From Terriglobia bacterium (GTDB lineage: Bacteria > Acidobacteriota > Terriglobia > Bryobacterales > Bryobacteraceae), in NCBI GenBank assembly GCA_025363475.1, contig JANYDS010000079.1, positions 1-62,365 of the forward strand: 62,365 nt of DNA, given 5' to 3'. The notes under the pieces are model-generated. The model was not told the origin of the DNA and ran no database searches. It worked only from the letters and a program-made list of their open reading frames with translations. The translations under genes were made by a program, and so were the position numbers. This document shows positions 11,051 through 19,131 of the stretch, piece by piece. Positions within the stretch are counted from its first letter, which is position 1. Each line of letters begins with the position of its first letter.

Positions 11051-14000
11051 TTAGAACTTGAACTGAGTGGACAAGCGAAACATCCGCGGATTGGTGATCA
11101 CCGTCGGGGTTCCACCAATACCGCAGTTTGTTGGATTGCCCGCGCTGGAGCACTGTGCGCTATCCATGAACAAGTGAACGTTGTTGGTTCCGAGCGATTG
11201 GGATTCGGCGATGGCAACGGACTGATTCATGGCGTTGAACATGCTGACCTCAGCGGAGAGTTTATACTTCTCGCGGAACATGAAGTTGCGGCGCAGGGTA
11301 AGGTCAAACTGACTGATGCGGGGGGTAAGACGGGAACCGGGCGCAACCAGCTGAATGATTTCGGTGCCCTGCTTCAGGTTGGCATCGACGATGGCACCAA
11401 GAGCCGAGTTGGCTGCATCGCGAGGGCACTGCGAGCAGTTCGTGGGGTAGCGCGTGGTGGGTCCGACGCTCCAGTTCACAGTATAGAAGCCCTGAACGGC
11501 GCCGGTAAAGACGCTCGCCGAGCGTACCTGGCCCAGGAAATTGCCGAGCTGGTTGGTGTAATTGGTGCTGGAAACAGGCGCATTGTAGAGCGAAATCGCC
11601 GCTTCGAAGCCATACTTGATCGGAATGTTGCCAGACAACTTGAGTTCATTCCGGTAAGGAACGCCGTCAAGTTTTCCCAGGCTGGCGACGCTGATTCCGT
11701 TAACTGTGAGGTTGGAGCCGGACTGGTCACAGAAACGAAGAGTATTGGGGTCGTTCAGGTTGGAGTTGGTGGCCGGCATGTCGCAGGTGCGGTCCCACAT
11801 CTTGTCGGCTGACCAGCCGCCGAAGAGGCTGATTTTGCGCGGCAAACGGGCGTTTACCGAGACTTCATAGCCGTTGTAAACGTTGTTGCGCGTGCTGTGC
11901 GGTGCATTGGTCTGATGCAGCGCGGGCTTCAGCCCGGCAAAGGTAGCGGCCAGGTTGAATACCGTTATCGGCGTACCATCCAGCGGATTGAGAATGTTCT
12001 GGGGCGTCCAGGCAGAACCGGGAACGGCGAGATTATTCACGGTGATCTGCTGATAGTCGAGCCGGTGATTCCAGTTCGCATTCAGCGTGACACCGCGGTA
12101 CAGTTCGCGCTGCAGGCCGGCGCTGAACTGCCAGTTGTATTCGCGATGGTAGGTGGGGTCGATGTCGTGATCGGAAGGCAGGTTGCCGAAAGCGAGGTTG
12201 GTATTTGGCCCGATATTGCCCTGACCAAAGGTGGCACCCACGGGGTAGCAGCCGGGGTTGCCTGTAGTCATGGTGGAAAGCGTTTGACCCGGGGTCACCT
12301 GGCAGGCGGTGGTGGGCGCACCGGTCCAGATCACGGTCTGCGTGGCCAGGAACATCGGGTTGAACGCATTCAGGTTGCCACTGACCAGCGGGCTGTTGTA
12401 TTTGCCCACAGCTGCCTTGAGGGCGGTTTTGTGATCCCCGAAAAGGTCATAGACGATTCCCAGGCGGGGAGACCAGTCTTTAAAGCAGCTGATGCCTGGA
12501 TTCGTCTGGCAGTTGATCTCAGCGAAGCTGCGGGCCGGAACGAAACGACCGGCAGGTGCGCTGGTTGCTTCAATGTGATTTCTGAGGTATTCCCAGCGCA
12601 GGCCGGCGGTCACCGAGAGGCGTTTGTAGCTCCACGTATCCATCGCGTAAATGCCGAGATCGTGATCGAGACGCGGGTGGGAATAGGTTGGCGTGTCATA
12701 GGCAGTGATGTTGTTGGGAACGCCGTTCTGGAAGTTATAGATGGCATCACCGTTCAGGAGAGTGTGAGCATAGGCGGGGCCGAAGCTGTCCTGCAGGCCG
12801 AATTTGATCTGGTGGCTGCCGGTTACATACTGCCCGGTCGCGTTGTATGCATAACGGTCAAACTTGTAGAAATTATTGAGACCGCCCGCAATACTGCGCG
12901 AACCTTTGGCTGTGTCGAGTTGCGTGCCGGCGGCGTACCATTCCGGGGTAAACGGCGTCTTCAGAACGCCCGGCTGGTTGGTGACGTAGTAGTCGTTGTA
13001 TTCAATGCCGAAACCGGCCTGGAGGATCAGCCGGGAGGTCAGGGTACCGGTCCAGCGAGCTTGGGCGATGTAGTACATGACCGGGTCGCGCTTGTTGGAT
13101 GAGATGTCCGGATTTGAATCATTGAAGCCGCCCGCACCAGAGACGATGTCATCTGTGATCGTCTTCCACATGCGGTGGTCCATGATGGAAATCTTGTTCT
13201 TCGAATTGAGCTGCCAGGTCAGGCGGAGATGACCGGTGTAGATGAAGTCTTTTTCGATACCCGGATCGCCGTTCGCATAGAATGATCCGGGCGATTGAAG
13301 GTTCGAGAGCTGCTTGCGGCCCGTGAGGACAAACCATAGTTTGTTTTTGAGGATCGGGCCACCAAACGAGCCGTCGAAGTCCTGAATTTGATTCACTTTC
13401 GACTGACCCGTGACTCCGCGGGTAACTTCGAGCGGTGTCACATTGCTGCCGACAAAGCGGGAAGGAACCCACCCCAGAAAGATGTCGCTGTTGAACCTGT
13501 TCCCGCCTTCTCTGGGTACCATGTTGACGAGCACACCGCCCGCCGAACTGTCAGCACCGATGGCGCTGGTCTGGTAGGTGGTTTCCTGAATGATGGCGTT
13601 ATCGACATAGGCCTGAATCTGCCCGTCGTTCTGGGTAACGTTGATCAGAATTCCATCGAGATTCCAGATGGTATGCCAGGTGTCATTGCCGTGGGATGTC
13701 AGATAGGTCTGCTGCACCTGCATGGAACCGCCGACGTCCGGCGTATTCAAATGGACACCGGGAACGAGGGCCCCGAGAGACTGTACGTTGCGCGCGCTGG
13801 GAATGGCGTCCATTTCATCCCGCGAGAGCACGGCGGGATGAGCCGCATTCTGGACGTCGACTGTTGCGACTGAGGCATCCACATTGACTGTTTCGCCGAC
13901 CGAACCAGGTTTCAGCGAGGCATCAACAGTTACGGTTGTATTTGATGGGACTTCAACCTGCTGTTTGACGGTAGCGAAGCCGGGCACTGTAAAAGTCATG

Positions 14001-14248
14001 GTGTAAACGCCCGGGCGAACGTCAACCACCGCATAACGGCCTTCGCCGTCCGTGGTTACTGTGCGCTGGCCTTCAATCAGGGCGGGGCTCGCGGCTTCCA
14101 CTGAGACTCCCACCATAACCGCGCCGGTGACGTCTTTGGCGGTCCCTGAAATTGAGCTTTGCGCGATGGCGTTTGCAGGCATGAATGCGCAGGCTGCGAA
14201 GCCCATGAAGCAAATATTCTGGAGTGCTCTTCCTGCTCTTCTAATCAT
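11051..14248 (-). CDS. TonB-dependent receptor, Oar-like, with carboxypeptidase-regulatory N-domain
   Basis: About 1065 residues from the ATG at 14248, which gives a clean signal peptide (MIRRAGRALQNICFMGFAAC to ANAIAQ); a longer in-frame start at 14296 would disrupt it. Next comes a carboxypeptidase-regulatory beta-sandwich (ISGTAKDVTGAVMVGVSVEA, DGEGRYAVVDVRPGVYTMTF), then a plug domain (VLSRDEMDAIPSARNVQSLG) and a long outer-membrane barrel ending in FRLSTQFKF with a terminal phenylalanine. Such receptors are abundant in Acidobacteriota and import large ligands, often glycans or peptides. It lies between the intact SPOR gene and a fragment of that gene, which suggests later insertion. Confidence 0.93.
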   Translation of the reverse strand: MIRRAGRALQNICFMGFAACAFMPANAIAQSSISGTAKDVTGAVMVGVSVEAASPALIEGQRTVTTDGEGRYAVVDVRPGVYTMTFTVPGFATVKQQVEVPSNTTVTVDASLKPGSVGETVNVDASVATVDVQNAAHPAVLSRDEMDAIPSARNVQSLGALVPGVHLNTPDVGGSMQVQQTYLTSHGNDTWHTIWNLDGILINVTQNDGQIQAYVDNAIIQETTYQTSAIGADSSAGGVLVNMVPREGGNRFNSDIFLGWVPSRFVGSNVTPLEVTRGVTGQSKVNQIQDFDGSFGGPILKNKLWFVLTGRKQLSNLQSPGSFYANGDPGIEKDFIYTGHLRLTWQLNSKNKISIMDHRMWKTITDDIVSGAGGFNDSNPDISSNKRDPVMYYIAQARWTGTLTSRLILQAGFGIEYNDYYVTNQPGVLKTPFTPEWYAAGTQLDTAKGSRSIAGGLNNFYKFDRYAYNATGQYVTGSHQIKFGLQDSFGPAYAHTLLNGDAIYNFQNGVPNNITAYDTPTYSHPRLDHDLGIYAMDTWSYKRLSVTAGLRWEYLRNHIEATSAPAGRFVPARSFAEINCQTNPGISCFKDWSPRLGIVYDLFGDHKTALKAAVGKYNSPLVSGNLNAFNPMFLATQTVIWTGAPTTACQVTPGQTLSTMTTGNPGCYPVGATFGQGNIGPNTNLAFGNLPSDHDIDPTYHREYNWQFSAGLQRELYRGVTLNANWNHRLDYQQITVNNLAVPGSAWTPQNILNPLDGTPITVFNLAATFAGLKPALHQTNAPHSTRNNVYNGYEVSVNARLPRKISLFGGWSADKMWDRTCDMPATNSNLNDPNTLRFCDQSGSNLTVNGISVASLGKLDGVPYRNELKLSGNIPIKYGFEAAISLYNAPVSSTNYTNQLGNFLGQVRSASVFTGAVQGFYTVNWSVGPTTRYPTNCSQCPRDAANSALGAIVDANLKQGTEIIQLVAPGSRLTPRISQFDLTLRRNFMFREKYKLSAEVSMFNAMNQSVAIAESQSLGTNNVHLFMDSAQCSSAGNPTNCGIGGTPTVITNPRMFRLSTQFKF

Positions 14249-14467
14249 CTGGTCACAATCCCCTGTGAGTTTTCCGGCAATTCCGGCGTTGATCAACCTG
14301 CGCTGGCCTAAAAAACAACTTCCGTTTGCAACCTGTAAATATTTTGGTGAACCGAAGGCCCGGATCGATTAGTAGGTATATATCTTTCGCCTGCCGGTGT
14401 CAATGCGGAAGTTCGAGCTCGAGCGAGTGGCGGGACTTCGAGTGGCGAGATCGCCGTGCGGGATGGT

Positions 14468-14558: not shown

Positions 14559-15191
14559 TTAGCTACGGACGCGGAAGCCGTATTCGTGAACCAGTGCGCC
14601 TTCAGAATTGTATAGACGCACAAAATAGTCGCCCTGTGACAGCGTCTTGCGGATATCGAGCTGAGCACCCCCTGCTGTGGCCAAAATACTACCGGCCCAC
14701 TGTGATTTGCCGGTGGAATCAACCACTTCCACACGGAATGGTCCGCCCGTTTGGGGCGCGTCGATTAGAGTCAGGTGAATTTCTTTGGCAGGCAGCGAAT
14801 AGGGCATGGTGCCGCGCATCGCTGTCAGCTGCAGCGATGCCGTTGGGGCGATATTGGTGTTTCCGGTTACGGAAAGGCCAACCGCGAGTACGACAGCCGC
14901 GCCAGCGAGAACCAGAGCGAAACCCGGTTTCCCGAGCCATTCGGGCAGCCCGAAACGCGACCACCATGAGAGAGTATTCCGCTGAACGGTATTCTCCCTG
15001 GCTGGAGCCACACCATCGGCAATCAGGGCCTCTCGCATCCCAACAGAAAAATCCTGCATCTGGTCAAGGCGTTCAAGACAAACCGCGCACACCAGTAAAT
15101 GCTCCTCAAGCACTGTCATATCGGACTCGGCTAACCGGCCCAGAGCGTACTGCTCCAGCTGGTCCTCCGTTCCGTGGAAATTTAGGTCCAC
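14559..15191 (-). CDS. Transmembrane zinc-finger anti-sigma factor
   Basis: 210 residues. The N-terminal 45 residues carry a zf-HC2/ZAS-type motif H31-x3-C35-x2-C38 (EEHLLVCAVC), which in this family grips the ECF sigma factor. One transmembrane helix spans about residues 90-108 (PGFALVLAGAAVVLAVGLSV). The C-terminal 100 residues would be periplasmic and look like a beta-rich sensor (LPAKEIHLTLIDAPQTGGPF, GDYFVRLYNSEGALVHEYGF). It follows the ECF sigma gene by 83 bp on the same strand, as expected for a sigma/anti-sigma pair, and shares its operon with a TPR-CHAT gene. Confidence 0.88.
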   Translation of the reverse strand: MDLNFHGTEDQLEQYALGRLAESDMTVLEEHLLVCAVCLERLDQMQDFSVGMREALIADGVAPARENTVQRNTLSWWSRFGLPEWLGKPGFALVLAGAAVVLAVGLSVTGNTNIAPTASLQLTAMRGTMPYSLPAKEIHLTLIDAPQTGGPFRVEVVDSTGKSQWAGSILATAGGAQLDIRKTLSQGDYFVRLYNSEGALVHEYGFRVRS

Positions 15192-15274
15192 ACTTAGCTC
15201 CTTATAGGAAAGGTGCGGAGGAACAAAATTCTTCTCAATGTTTTTTGCTTTTTTCTCAAATTATTTTCGTGCGC

Positions 15275-15970
15275 TCAGGCCGGCTTGCGCAAATTGACTC
15301 CGACGCCTGCGGCCAGACGTTTGCCGATCTCGCCAAAACGCGCTTTTGCGCGGGATTTGAGCAGCCGGAACTGGTTATAGCTCAGACCCATGTCGGCACA
15401 GATCTGCTCCTGAGTTTGTTCCTGAACGTAGAACCGGTTCAGAATTTCCCGGTCCCGGCGTGAGACGCTGCTCAATACCTTCCGCGCGATATCGGCTCGC
15501 TGCCGCGCCATCACGGTTCGTTCCGGATCTTCACGCCAGTCAGAAACGGTGAGCAGGGTGTCGTCAAATTCGGCCCGGGTGCGGCGTTGCTGCACGGCAC
15601 TGTCGATGGAGCCTGCGATCTGTCGTTTTACGACAGTCCTGACGTAGCCCATCAGACGGTCAGGTTCACGCAGTTCACCGTTGCGAATGGCCTGGGTCAC
15701 AATCAGGAAGCAATCGTGGACTTTATCATCCAGCTCTTCCGGCCCCAGATTGCGCAGCAGAAAATAACGGATACCCTTGGCGAAGATAGCGTAGAGTTCC
15801 TCCATGGCCGCCGGTTCACCGGCATGGATACGCTGAACGAGTTTCGCCCAGTCAGTCACCTGGAGGACTTCCGGCCTTGGTGCTTCGGATTCGGGAACCG
15901 CGTCGGACGCCATCGTGTCTATTGTTGCCTGTGATGTTACCAAGCCTCTGACTGTTGCCGCTGATGTCAC
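15275..15970 (-). CDS. ECF-type RNA polymerase sigma factor
   Basis: 231 residues from a GTG at 15970. This start is chosen because the GTG overlaps the upstream CHAT stop by 4 bp (GTGA) and has a strong ribosome-binding site (GGGGAGGG) just upstream; an ATG at 15913 is the alternative. Region sigma-2 covers AAMEELYAIFAKGIRYFLLR to PDRLMGYVRTVVKRQI, and sigma-4 covers VLSSVSRRDREILNRFYVQE to YNQFRLLKSRAKARFGEI with the helix-turn-helix EQICADMGLSYNQFRLLK. No sigma-3 region, as in ECF factors. It is sandwiched between the TPR-CHAT gene and the anti-sigma gene, so the three likely form one control unit. Confidence 0.92.
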   Translation of the reverse strand: MTSAATVRGLVTSQATIDTMASDAVPESEAPRPEVLQVTDWAKLVQRIHAGEPAAMEELYAIFAKGIRYFLLRNLGPEELDDKVHDCFLIVTQAIRNGELREPDRLMGYVRTVVKRQIAGSIDSAVQQRRTRAEFDDTLLTVSDWREDPERTVMARQRADIARKVLSSVSRRDREILNRFYVQEQTQEQICADMGLSYNQFRLLKSRAKARFGEIGKRLAAGVGVNLRKPA

Positions 15971-18369
15971 AGTGCCCTCCCCAGTAAAAAATATGCACCC
16001 AGCAGATTCAGGCTGCCGGGTTTGTTCCTGTGTTTCAACAGTGCGAGTTGCGCCTGCTGCAATGCCCATGCGGGGCCTTTATCGCGATGGGCGCGCAGCT
16101 CACTATAAAAGTCGCTCATAAACGTCTGACTGGCATCGTCCGCGATGTCCCAGCGGGTTGCGAGGACGGCACCGGCGCCCGCTCCGATCCATGCGCGGGT
16201 GAGGCCCATCAGCCCGGCACCCGGTATGGTTTGGCCCTGGGCGGAGTGGCAGCCGTTGAGAACAACCAGTTCTGCGGTGACCGGGCGGGCCAGGATATCT
16301 TTCGGACCCAGGAGGCCGAGGGCACCGGTGCGATCAAGGCTTAGGGCGATCAGACCGGAGGAAAAGTCGCCCGGTCCGGTCACCACATGAGTGGCGAAAT
16401 GAATAATGGACGGGTTCGCTCGCAGAGCCTCAGCCACCTGTGCGAGTCCGGCATCTGCACCAGCCAGAATACGGGTTCCGCTCTGCCCCCATGCCAGTGC
16501 GCACGCACTTATTTCCCGTGCCGTTGCGGGCAGGCGTGGCAGCGAAACAGTCCGGGAGGTAGTGGGACCGCCACGGTAGCGGGTGTCGGCCGAGTTATAG
16601 ATGGCGTCGCCGATGGCGAGCATTCCCCCGTTTCCCGGCTCCCTGTGGCGCTCGATCATCATGGCGCTGGGAATCACCTGTAACGTCGCGCGTTCCACCA
16701 GATAGACCGGACCCTCTGCGGCATCCGCCACAGGCAGGGCGGCGAACGGAAGATCGAACAGCGGGGCGTCGAGTTCCAGGAGCCAGCGCTTTCGCGCAAG
16801 GTATGAAGCCTTGACACTGCCGAAGAGGCTGCGATAGAGGCGCAGGCCGAGGGCGTCCGCCTGCGGTGAGTCGGACTGCACAGCTCGGGTAAATGCCGCT
16901 ACGGCTGCCTGAATTTCTGAAAGAGGAGGCAGGGGCCACACGTCGACGTGCTGACGGTCAGCCGCCCAGAGCCAGGTGCCCCGTTCGGACAAATGGAAAC
17001 TCAGGAAGACGGTGTTTGAATCCAGACCTTCCTGGAGGGTGGTGAGGGGTGACCGCTGCGCTCCGTTCGACTGCGCAACCTGATCGCCGGCCGCTGCTTC
17101 GATTTCCTGCAGTTCACGGCGCAGGGCGGAGGCTTCCCGCCCAGCCGGCGCAGCGGGGTTTGCGAGGAGGGTGAGTTGCAGCTTTTGGTACTGCGCGAGG
17201 CGGTCCCAATAGAGTTCCGGCAGGCGGGTGCGCCAGTCATTCGGGGCGGGCAGAAGGGTTCGCAGGCTCCAGAGACGGTCGTTTTCAGCTGCGTCGAAGG
17301 TTTCTTCGAGAAGTTCCCTGGAAGAAATCTGACGCGCCAGCCGGTTTCCTGCCTCGACCAGACCCTCGTCGATCCGGCTGAGTCCGCTGTCAGCAACAAT
17401 CCGGTTCTGATCTGCGGGGACCATGTCGAGACGCATGAGGGCCGCGAGGCGGCGGGCTTTGCGGAAATCTGTCAGTGCGCCCGACAGGTCGCCGCGGTCG
17501 ATTCGGAACTCGCCACGGTCCGCATAGAGGAACCAGCGGGCGCTTGACCCTTGCGGAGATTCGATAGCACGGTCAAACAAGGCAGCTGCGGAGCGAAAGT
17601 CGCCCTGGGTTTGTTTCAGCCTGGCGAGCACCCGGAGGACGTTCGGAGCGCTGGCGAAGCTATGAGTGCGCACCAGCCGGAGAGCTTCGGTAAGGGCTGC
17701 TTCGGCCTCGTCCGGACGCTGGGCTGCGAGTGCGCGAATACCAAGGGTGGTCAAGGCTTTCGCGACGGCTTCGATGTCGCCTTCGTCTTCAATTGCGCTG
17801 ATGGAACGCCGGTAAATCGGCAGTGCTTCGTTAAATCGCCCCGTGGCGGCAAGGGCACTGGCCAGCTGGTATTCCAGCCTGGGTTTCAGCGTTTTGGCGG
17901 AACTTCCCATCGGCTGGGCGAGGGCTGTGGTGGCAACCTGGATAGCCAGATCATTGTTGCCCATCAGAAAGTAGAGACTTGCCAAATTGTTGGATATGTT
18001 TGCGAGAACCGGGTACAACCGAGCAGAATCGGCAATTTGGCGTGCGCGGGCGAAATCCATGAGCGCATCACGGTAATTGAGCCGGGCAAGCGCCGCGCTG
18101 CCCGCGTTACTCAGGCTTTTTGCGGCAAGTTCGGTCGCGCCGGTTTTTTCAGCGTGCGTGGCCGCTGCTCTGAAAGCATTGCCGGCAGCAAGAAACTGAC
18201 CCGACGCATAAAGTGATTTCGCGCGCGCGACTTCCGCTGCCACGGCGGCGACGGACGAGGGGTTTGATTGTAGGGAGAAGTTCGCTGGAAGCTGCGTCGA
18301 GCCAGTCAGCGAGAGTGCGGCCAAAGTAGAACCAGTGACCGCGACTATAAATCCGAGGTTTTTTCGCAC
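15967..18369 (-). CDS. TPR-CHAT caspase-like protease, probably exported
   Basis: 800 residues. The N-terminus (KNLGFIVAVTGSTLAALSLTG) reads as a signal peptide or membrane anchor. Residues 35-330 are tetratricopeptide-like helical repeats (for example LASALAATGRFNEALPIYRR, TLGIRALAAQRPDEAEAALT). The C-terminal domain is CHAT, a clan CD caspase-like fold, with the catalytic histidine in IIHFATHVV (H661) and catalytic cysteine in VVLNGCHSAQG (C707), both intact. It is the first gene of an operon with an ECF sigma factor (4-bp overlap) and a membrane anti-sigma factor. TPR-CHAT proteases act in craspase, where a cut releases a sigma factor, so a proteolytic switch is an attractive inference. 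Confidence 0.92.
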   Translation of the reverse strand: MRKNLGFIVAVTGSTLAALSLTGSTQLPANFSLQSNPSSVAAVAAEVARAKSLYASGQFLAAGNAFRAAATHAEKTGATELAAKSLSNAGSAALARLNYRDALMDFARARQIADSARLYPVLANISNNLASLYFLMGNNDLAIQVATTALAQPMGSSAKTLKPRLEYQLASALAATGRFNEALPIYRRSISAIEDEGDIEAVAKALTTLGIRALAAQRPDEAEAALTEALRLVRTHSFASAPNVLRVLARLKQTQGDFRSAAALFDRAIESPQGSSARWFLYADRGEFRIDRGDLSGALTDFRKARRLAALMRLDMVPADQNRIVADSGLSRIDEGLVEAGNRLARQISSRELLEETFDAAENDRLWSLRTLLPAPNDWRTRLPELYWDRLAQYQKLQLTLLANPAAPAGREASALRRELQEIEAAAGDQVAQSNGAQRSPLTTLQEGLDSNTVFLSFHLSERGTWLWAADRQHVDVWPLPPLSEIQAAVAAFTRAVQSDSPQADALGLRLYRSLFGSVKASYLARKRWLLELDAPLFDLPFAALPVADAAEGPVYLVERATLQVIPSAMMIERHREPGNGGMLAIGDAIYNSADTRYRGGPTTSRTVSLPRLPATAREISACALAWGQSGTRILAGADAGLAQVAEALRANPSIIHFATHVVTGPGDFSSGLIALSLDRTGALGLLGPKDILARPVTAELVVLNGCHSAQGQTIPGAGLMGLTRAWIGAGAGAVLATRWDIADDASQTFMSDFYSELRAHRDKGPAWALQQAQLALLKHRNKPGSLNLLGAYFLLGRAL

Positions 18370-18461
18370 CAGCTTGTCTCTGGCTGGACCCGGTGGTAGC
18401 CCACATTATTCATGTACGGCTGCCACCGAGTCTAGCAGAGTTTATTCGCGGTTGGCGAATT

Positions 18462-18616
18462 CCGGATAGTCCGGTTGGTTTGGTTAGGTAGATGCGCTCT
18501 GTCGGCGCATAGTACAACAAACAGCTACAGACCGAGGAACTGAATGATGATGATCGGATCGGTATCCATCGGGTGTGCTTTCTGTCCCCGGAATTTCTTC
18601 CGGGAGACAAGCACAC
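18462..18616. promoter_or_regulatory. Structured upstream region of the CHAT operon: three hairpins
   Basis: This gap of 369 bp (18370-18738) holds no credible gene. It contains CCGGA-TAG-TCCGG (18462-18474), ATGCGC-loop-GCGCAT (18492-18510) and a long imperfect hairpin at 18573-18616. The last pairs GTGTGCTT with AAGCACAC, GTC with GAC and CCCGGAA with TTCCGGG around a TTTC loop, about 18 pairs in all. It could be the leader RNA of the CHAT operon, an independent small RNA, or part of the promoter. No T-tract follows the long hairpin on either strand, so it is not a standard terminator. Confidence 0.5.
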
Positions 18617-18738
18617 AGTACACGGCGCGCTATGAAATCAGGCGAATGAAAATCCCAGGTAGTTGATAACAAAGTAAATATAAACTTTCATCGCGCGTGA
18701 ACGAAATTATTTACACATGTAAGAAATAGCCTGGTGTC

Positions 18739-19131
18739 ATGCTATTGGTTGTGGCTGCCCCTTCCCTCAAAATCCTTGGCGTGATGTCCGATTTGTTCTT
18801 TTCCGTAAAAATCCTGGACGAGGCCAGGCGGCTGGGAATGAGCGCCGAGTTCGTTAAAGATCAGGCGCTGGCGCTGGAGAAAATCAAGAATCAGCCTCCG
18901 CTGGTCATTTTCGATTTGAATTGTGCCGGAGCCGGGGCGGTGGAAATTCTGCGTGCGATGAAGGCTGATCCATTGACGCGGGCCGTTCCCACGTTGGGAT
19001 TCGTGGCCCATGTGCAGGTTGAATTGAAGCAGGAAGCGCTGGCGGCAGGCTGCGATGTGGTGGTGGCGCGGTCGGTTTTCGCGCAGAGTTTGCCGGAGCT
19101 ATTGCGCGGTCAGCTCACGCAGGCGGTCTAG
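18739..19131 (+). CDS. Receiver-like protein (degenerate response regulator)
   Basis: 130 residues with no output domain. The pattern of a receiver fold is visible: LKILGVMSDLFFSVKILDEA, then PPLVIFDLNCAGAGAVEILR with an aspartate at the end of strand 3 in the usual phosphorylation position, and a later DVVVARSVFAQ. The N-terminal acidic pair that normally binds magnesium is not obvious, so it may be a pseudo-receiver. The start at 18739 is the longest; an ATG at 18784 (MSDLFFSVKI) is possible. It converges on trpD with a 33-bp overlap of the 3' ends and is divergent from the CHAT operon. Confidence 0.6.
   Translation: MLLVVAAPSLKILGVMSDLFFSVKILDEARRLGMSAEFVKDQALALEKIKNQPPLVIFDLNCAGAGAVEILRAMKADPLTRAVPTLGFVAHVQVELKQEALAAGCDVVVARSVFAQSLPELLRGQLTQAV

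Follow-up and report, generated by a model that had tools for sequence, protein, structure and literature searches.

A TPR-CHAT, ECF sigma and anti-sigma operon of Bryobacteraceae as a candidate split relative of the DdvS/DdvA switch, with a micropeptide gene upstream

DdvS and DdvA of Myxococcus xanthus are reportedly the subject of two studies, Bernal-Bernal 2018 (NAR) and 2024 (Sci Adv). In the passages of the sources cited here, DdvS acts once DdvA is inactivated by an unknown signal (PMC4374960) and controls a CBASS-CRISPR island (PMC12288465). Craspase, in the portion of PMC10028731 that deals with it, brings together a TPR-CHAT protease, a sigma inhibitor and a sigma factor resembling those of the extracytoplasmic function (ECF) family, and for the group ECF54 the relevant extract of PMC8999054 (citing Casas-Pastor 2021) gives CHAT, subtilase and carboxypeptidase genes nearby and proposes proteolytic regulation. 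Here we describe a locus of this kind in a stretch of 62,365 nucleotides (nt) from a Terriglobia bacterium of the Bryobacteraceae (JANYDS010000079.1), hereafter the window, which makes up all of contig C22 in a 4.16-Mb genome. Genes coding for a TPR-CHAT protein, an ECF sigma factor and a membrane anti-sigma factor follow one another there in one operon. We give about even chances to the view that they form a split switch of the DdvS/DdvA type, in which an exported TPR-CHAT protein would dock on the anti-sigma factor and cut it, freeing the sigma factor. The DdvS/DdvA-type switch itself is known; what appears to be new here is a putative split DdvA-like arrangement accompanied by a micropeptide gene.

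The open reading frame (ORF) map of the window places the three genes on the minus strand, in the order CHAT, sigma, anti-sigma, as the initial annotation had it. The CHAT gene (15967..18369, GTG start) codes for 800 residues, with a hydrophobic helix at residues 3–24, TPR repeats at about 37–310, also matched in Pfam, and a CHAT domain at 508–782 (Pfam, E = 3.1e-45). Its His-Cys dyad, His661 (16387–16389) and Cys707 (16249–16251), was located by script as announced, and is invariant in all 83 aligned rows that reach it, three others being truncated. The sigma gene (15275..15970, 231 residues) also has a GTG start, which overlaps the CHAT stop as GTGA and is preceded by GGGGAGGG, so that both the overlap and the ribosome-binding site previously claimed are there. 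It matches the NCBIfam sigma70-ECF family TIGR02937 above cut-off (E = 6.5e-13, with a query two codons longer than the called gene), and the sigma profile has no relatives in PDB at 1e-5. After a gap of 83 nt comes the anti-sigma gene (14559..15191, 210 residues), its start preceded by AAGGAG. It contains an HxxxCxxC zinc-finger motif at residues 31–38 (15078–15101), with a weak match to the Pfam family zf-HC2 (E = 0.0025, below cut-off), then a single hydrophobic segment at about residues 90–108 (14868–14924), then an outer beta-sandwich domain (about 14562–14858) of roughly 100 residues, the size initially given. PADLOC returned the TPR hit alone, and a scan of the window for promoters and terminators stayed at chance level.

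The same kind of locus is found in genomes titled Bryobacteraceae, Bryobacterales and Candidatus Solibacter. With the window CHAT as query (E 1e-30), 84 of 151 related genomes match, that is, 83 of the 91 of the same family and one of another family, and the sigma factor is present in 86 of the 91. Over 237 genomes of the family, CHAT is found in 199 at E 1e-85, including at least four best matches (G268, G269, G219 and G199) that are paralogues in the tree, and sigma is found in 219 at E 1e-45, in 72 of 76 genera, a handful of these matches being weak (1e-50 to 1e-63) and possibly paralogues. Among 85 CHAT loci, both sigma and anti-sigma follow downstream on the CHAT strand in 64, sigma only in nine, and neither in 12. 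Eleven of the 21 incomplete loci have less than 800 bases of contig downstream, six carry the anti-sigma in another part of the genome, and in two the sigma/anti-sigma pair lies elsewhere; the remainder are L089, a second, lower-scoring CHAT of G084 that was not placed in the tree, and L090, from another family, where the gene order is sigma, anti-sigma, CHAT. A separate scan of named genomes, which overlaps the first set in genomes and did not require strand (the anti-sigma is on the opposite strand at L176 and L185), gave all three genes at 63 of 80 loci, CHAT and sigma at eight, and CHAT only at nine; 14 of these 17 incomplete loci have less than 1,000 bases behind CHAT. The conserved trio in both scans rules out CHAT as a chance neighbor. 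Lack of co-conservation among relatives had been named at the outset as the result that would speak against the idea; co-conservation is found family-wide, and the idea survives.

The closest solved relative of this CHAT protein by sequence profile is DdvA. A structural model of the protein (predicted local distance difference test, pLDDT, of 90) matches Csx29 (8eey_B, E = 4.4e-14), separase and DdvA (8rot_A, E = 1e-11) in Foldseek, and of the 50 matches listed the highest query-normalised TM-score, 0.49, is shared by DdvA and one separase entry. When the CHAT sequence profile (A6) is compared with PDB sequences, DdvA comes best (residues 832–978, E = 5.4e-7), followed by separase (2e-4), and no Csx29 chain appears up to E = 10. 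Both the His and the Cys are kept in DdvA in the alignment. The anti-sigma profile (A4) matches ChrR (5e-5) and then residues 7–91 of DdvA (1.9e-4), a stretch that covers the zinc finger and the membrane segment; nothing in DdvA is matched by the outer sandwich. Hence, two separate genes match opposite ends of DdvA, which constitutes a gene-fusion link between them. None of the 3,660 ORFs of at least 150 residues in the fetched loci other than those of the named genomes matches both profiles as a fusion would. We suppose that, in the split system, the sandwich domain stands in for the covalent link of DdvA.

The initial annotation had drawn its analogy with Csx29 and craspase. This analogy holds for the fold, but with DdvA as the nearest relative by sequence profile, "split DdvA" fits better than "CRISPR-free craspase." The accompanying statement that neither gRAMP nor a CRISPR array is present is right for the window, where no family of CRISPR-like direct repeats of 23 nt or more within 120 nt was found, and needs an addition for the genome. 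Its only two RAMP-family matches are separate ORFs of 284 and 368 residues on another contig (C51:158544–160654), which may mark a type III CRISPR-like locus at a distance from the operon, and not a III-E fusion.

Among aligned anti-sigma proteins, HxxxCxxC is found in 67 of 71 rows, with one hydrophobic segment and typically about 100 residues after it. His31, Cys35, Cys38, Arg126, Arg192, and Glu203 are invariant in 57 rows, the last three lying past the membrane segment. The C-terminal domain is modeled by AlphaFold2 as seven strands (pLDDT mostly >90), and it has weak matches in PDB, CopC (5icu) first, then PAD and Ig-like folds. Arg126 was considered as a cleavage site; its conservation is equally explicable as structural, and no site is claimed. 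As for CHAT, the N-terminal export or anchor segment that had been predicted recurs as a hydrophobic 15-mer (mean Kyte-Doolittle of at least 1.5) in 74 of the 76 rows with a readable N-terminus, two of which (L107 and L080) end, by eye, in a lipobox-like motif. Because the zinc-finger end should be cytoplasmic, where the sigma factor is, the conserved outer domain and CHAT would share one side of the membrane.

The distribution of CHAT and of the outer domain provides the main evidence that the two work together. In 114 genomes, both are present in 93, neither in 20, the domain without CHAT in one, and CHAT without the domain in none. Loci at contig ends (e.g., G217 and G283), second copies (L276 and L277), and weak sigma paralogues (L257 and L267) were excluded before the count, and G269, G215, G216, and G238 were judged from the sigma locus alone. 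Twenty-one genomes of the family have sigma and lack an orthologous CHAT. In 15 of these, a short zinc-finger protein of 63–135 residues lies next to sigma; none of the 15 has the outer domain, and that of G019, perhaps also that of G278, ends in a hydrophobic segment. In G052 the anti-sigma is degraded, and G151, G218, G219, and G220 have none beside sigma. In G247, the anti-sigma profile match continues to position 136 across two stop codons, in what looks like the remains of a longer anti-sigma gene. A missing neighboring anti-sigma might have meant its loss, but searches of 32 whole genomes with the anti-sigma profile rule this out, as all 12 CHAT-bearing genomes without one beside sigma have an unlinked full-length copy (E from 2e-61 to 3e-38, reaching the end of the profile). 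At that strength, a full-length copy is found in one of the 20 CHAT-less genomes (G076, 8.9e-37), three of which (G069, G165, and G280) are also without sigma. Anti-sigma genes that lie apart from sigma and keep the outer domain are seen in CHAT-bearing genomes at L286–L292 and L294–L297. From this comparison of genomes, a functional coupling of CHAT to the outer domain of the anti-sigma is strongly supported.

On the sigma tree, 12 changes of CHAT presence are needed, only four of them forced by starred branches, and since the majority of genomes has CHAT these would be losses rather than gains. In the four independent pairs on starred branches, the domain follows CHAT in 3.8 on average and never does the opposite. 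Five genera (g47, g35, g25, g38, and g54) mix members with and without CHAT, and there the CHAT-less members lose the domain or the whole anti-sigma and keep sigma; the mixed genus g59, with G076, is the exception. Together with the near-closed CHAT-less genomes G272 (two contigs) and G278 (three contigs), this makes it unlikely that assembly gaps are the general cause, although completeness is only 81–87% in G151, G218, and G220. A CHAT gene located elsewhere in the CHAT-less genomes was also rejected, as profile searches of the 21 genomes (with the first 50 or 92 candidates scored in some of them) turned up CHATs that group with paralogues in the CHAT-domain tree. The best candidate of G076 (L223) is outside this tree and matches paralogues best.

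These paralogues form a TPR-CHAT clade of their own (19 rows, some being the same gene fetched twice, with support 100), in a second type of operon. In ten loci (L230, L231, L235, L278–L283, and L285), sigma is followed by a zinc-finger transmembrane anti-sigma, then by an extra gene, then by TPR-CHAT. The extra ORF measures about 270–350 residues between stop codons, shares the strand of its neighbors in all ten, and is related by BLAST among nine of them but not in L285; four were tested against Pfam, without a credible match, and at L225 there is no room for it. Weaker full-length matches to the anti-sigma profile (64–68 bits) in five CHAT-less genomes (G220, G272, G275, G278, and G069) all adjoin a paralogous TPR-CHAT (L281, L278, L280, L279, and L230), and of the matches at 50–57 bits, those at L283, L225, and L231 have a paralogous CHAT beside them and that at L284 does not. 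Each of the 44 paralogue rows in which the two columns are filled keeps His and Cys, though a few genes were again fetched twice; three paralogue and eight orthologue rows of the alignment end before the Cys. By eye, six of 11 printed N-termini of this type are lipobox-like, two strictly canonically (L230 and L279), and the other five ORFs, possibly over-extended, are without such an N-terminus. Elsewhere in the window's own genome (C35:16053–20794, L001 and L002), two CHAT proteins adjoin each other in open frames of 1,049 and 1,033 residues.

The split DdvS/DdvA-type switch would work as follows. The zinc-finger part of the anti-sigma would hold the ECF sigma factor at the inner membrane face, as expected from the family, and the outer sandwich would be the docking and substrate site of the exported or anchored TPR-CHAT, co-loss pointing to the coupling and the contact being presumed. 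Upon the meeting of the TPR part with its trigger, the His-Cys protease would probably cut the anti-sigma outside the membrane, and an M50-family site-2 protease, present in the genome, would complete the cleavage and release the sigma factor. Several points weigh against this scheme. M50 proteases are present in 14 of 14 control genomes as well as in that of the window, and being near-universal they lend little support to regulated intramembrane proteolysis. Export of CHAT, and whether it is then anchored or released, is a prediction from sequence, and most CHAT N-termini are without an evident signal-peptidase site. G076 (L207) keeps the outer domain without an orthologous CHAT, in an anti-sigma of 182 residues with a weak hydrophobic segment. 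The sigma tree is weakly resolved, and the sign test on the pairs is below significance (median p 0.125). Finally, anti-sigma and TPR-CHAT form a single chain in DdvA, so that signaling by the CHAT part may involve no cutting.

This last point leads to a non-proteolytic account, which we regard as possible though doubtful, in which TPR-CHAT would act as a sensor subunit on the outside, docking on the outer domain and either changing the conformation of the anti-sigma or guarding it, the His and Cys serving another use. The single chain of DdvA, known from entry titles and profile matches to hold the transmembrane anti-sigma with the TPR-CHAT, speaks in its favor, co-loss is equally compatible with docking or cleavage, and protection of an anti-sigma against proteolysis by outer-membrane transducers is reported in the title of PMC11637429. 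A mere scaffold, however, would not need the dyad, which is invariant in the 83 orthologue rows and kept in the 44 paralogue rows, duplicates among these included. Alternatively, CHAT could be the output of the pathway, an exported protease or death effector under sigma control and not a regulator; it sits in the same operon as sigma, and CHAT proteases do serve as effectors in other systems. The outer domain of the anti-sigma would then be unneeded by CHAT, yet it vanishes with CHAT and is kept by the unlinked anti-sigmas where CHAT is present (12 of 12), which makes this very unlikely. That the pattern reflects only common descent and operon inheritance, with no functional coupling, is the most improbable of the alternatives. 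All members do belong to one family, with only the four changes on starred branches being forced, and G076 breaks the pattern. Against this, CHAT-less members inside CHAT-bearing genera lose the domain or the anti-sigma and keep sigma, unlinked partners preserve the pairing, and the paralogous TPR-CHAT clade adjoins sigma and anti-sigma in a different gene order.

Upstream of CHAT in the window lies a micro-ORF, MDTDPIIIIQFLGL (18525..18569, minus strand), whose stop is 155 nt 5′ of the CHAT start and which belongs to a conserved family of hydrophobic micropeptides. The pattern was spotted by inspection first and counted afterwards, among 13,688 ATG mini-ORFs of 9–30 residues from 2.09 Mb of fetched DNA read on both strands, made of partly overlapping loci all chosen around CHAT, sigma or anti-sigma genes. 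In this DNA, the strict pattern M-x(0-6)-[DE]-P-[IV]-[IVLF]-[IVL] gives 51 matches at 49 loci, all 5′ of a CHAT gene and none away from one. Of these, 48 are within 500 nt upstream of a tabulated CHAT or at its very start, and the other three are just upstream of a CHAT that is over-extended in the table (L098) or missing from it (L271 and L228, the latter in a genome of a sister family, with CHAT cut by the contig end). A looser pattern is found at 50 of 79 CHAT loci, one of them (L044) through a spurious GTG frame, and diverged forms such as MGDPPIIIIFPGLW and MPPIIIIVD occur at further loci. In the named genomes, the micro-ORF is present at 41 of the 74 loci with room for it. None was seen in six relatives of the window's own genus, or at any of 21 CHAT-less sigma loci. 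Where CHAT has moved away from sigma (G018 and G071), the micro-ORF stays with CHAT (L094 and L058). The codons vary synonymously, with Asp as GAT or GAC, Pro in four forms, Ile as ATC or ATT and Val in three forms, as one would expect if the peptide is translated, and a purine-rich stretch, possibly a ribosome site, precedes 37 of 50 micro-ORFs. The 50 distinct micropeptides have 9–23 residues, 38 of them without Lys or Arg and 35 ending in Phe, Leu or Trp, and their Ile is swapped for Val, Leu, Phe, Trp or Pro.

Between the micro-ORF and CHAT, the window has an imperfect inverted repeat with 19-nt arms (approximately 18383..18436, minus strand). At 60 of 79 loci an inverted repeat near the CHAT start scores at least 11, compared with one of 79 after single-letter shuffling, and in an alignment of 20 repeats, picked for being repeats and with one row misaligned, 12 of 13 pairs are changed on both sides. 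With rows selected in this way, the count is biased towards structure, and the repeat may equally be a DNA operator. In part of the relatives, TATGAT (15 exact occurrences, 85–103 nt behind the micro-ORF stop) and TTGCCA (nine occurrences, 53–74 nt behind it) are also found there, often directly followed by an inverted repeat. A search for sigma-70 promoters upstream of the micro-ORF gave no clear signal, with 3 of 48 against 1.7 in shuffles, and a search of 18350–18760 in Rfam gave three matches, all far below the gathering score.

The role of the DPIIII micropeptide is a matter of speculation, and it is a candidate trigger, inhibitor or model substrate of TPR-CHAT. A peptide-gated, CRISPR-free switch, in which the TPR part senses the micropeptide and the exported CHAT cuts the anti-sigma, with craspase, DdvA, and the present operon as three arrangements of one older TPR-CHAT/anti-sigma/ECF-sigma module, seems to us rather unlikely in this full form. 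The micro-ORF might instead be an Ile-rich leader used in attenuation, without function as a peptide, as its composition and the inverted repeats downstream suggest. We find this unlikely, as the Ile positions are swapped for other residues, including Pro, and so many of the peptides end in Phe, Leu or Trp. Moreover, with TATGAT and TTGCCA lying between the two in part of the relatives, expression of CHAT does not have to depend on read-through from the micro-ORF.

On the other side of the operon, directly 3′ of the anti-sigma gene, the window codes for a protein of 1,081 residues with a CarboxypepD_reg domain (11051–14296, minus strand), which we take to resemble an Oar-type TonB-dependent receptor.

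If the split switch is confirmed, an envelope sigma pathway of a large and mostly uncultured soil family would have a caspase-like protease built in as its site-1 protease, and the operon would provide a CRISPR-free relative for asking where the craspase-sigma logic came from. When a protease and a single domain of its presumed target disappear together, this amounts to a natural experiment, and it indicates where the two would interact. The micropeptides, whose genes are below the length that ordinary gene callers detect, are a concrete candidate for the signal. We found no report of the trio or of the micropeptide in the open-access library searched.

The TPR protein adjoining a tiny Ile-rich peptide gene recalls the RRNPP and SHP-Rgg systems. 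In the excerpts concerned, the active form of SHP3 is DIIIIVGG and its receptor class is likened to TPR-type regulators (PMC3150281), and the criteria for such pairs are a propeptide with a basic N-terminus or a Sec signal and a receptor of 250–500 residues (PMC10075063). In contrast, the micropeptides here have no propeptide leader, and the TPR protein is an apparently exported protease of 800 residues and not a cytosolic regulator. The likeness is suggestive only, and may be convergent or due to chance. With RseA/DegS/RseP, the operon shares a membrane anti-sigma with an outer domain, according to its predicted topology, and an M50 protease in the genome, but the candidate site-1 protease is here caspase-like and encoded in the operon. 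ECF54 shares the nearby CHAT gene and the proposal of regulation by proteolysis, but the extract cited above describes it without an anti-sigma, which the present operon has. The type III-E system Csx29/Csx30/CASP-sigma has a TPR-CHAT with the His-Cys dyad and the same fold, and the same roles of protease, inhibitor, and sigma, whereas the operon here is without gRAMP or CRISPR array and its inhibitor is a transmembrane zinc-finger protein. Finally, DdvS/DdvA of M. xanthus (PDB 8rot and 8rw5) has an ECF sigma, a transmembrane zinc-finger anti-sigma, and a TPR-CHAT related in both sequence and fold. In that system DdvA is one chain, whereas here there are two genes, an anti-sigma with a beta-sandwich domain, the gene order CHAT–sigma–anti-sigma, and a micropeptide gene.

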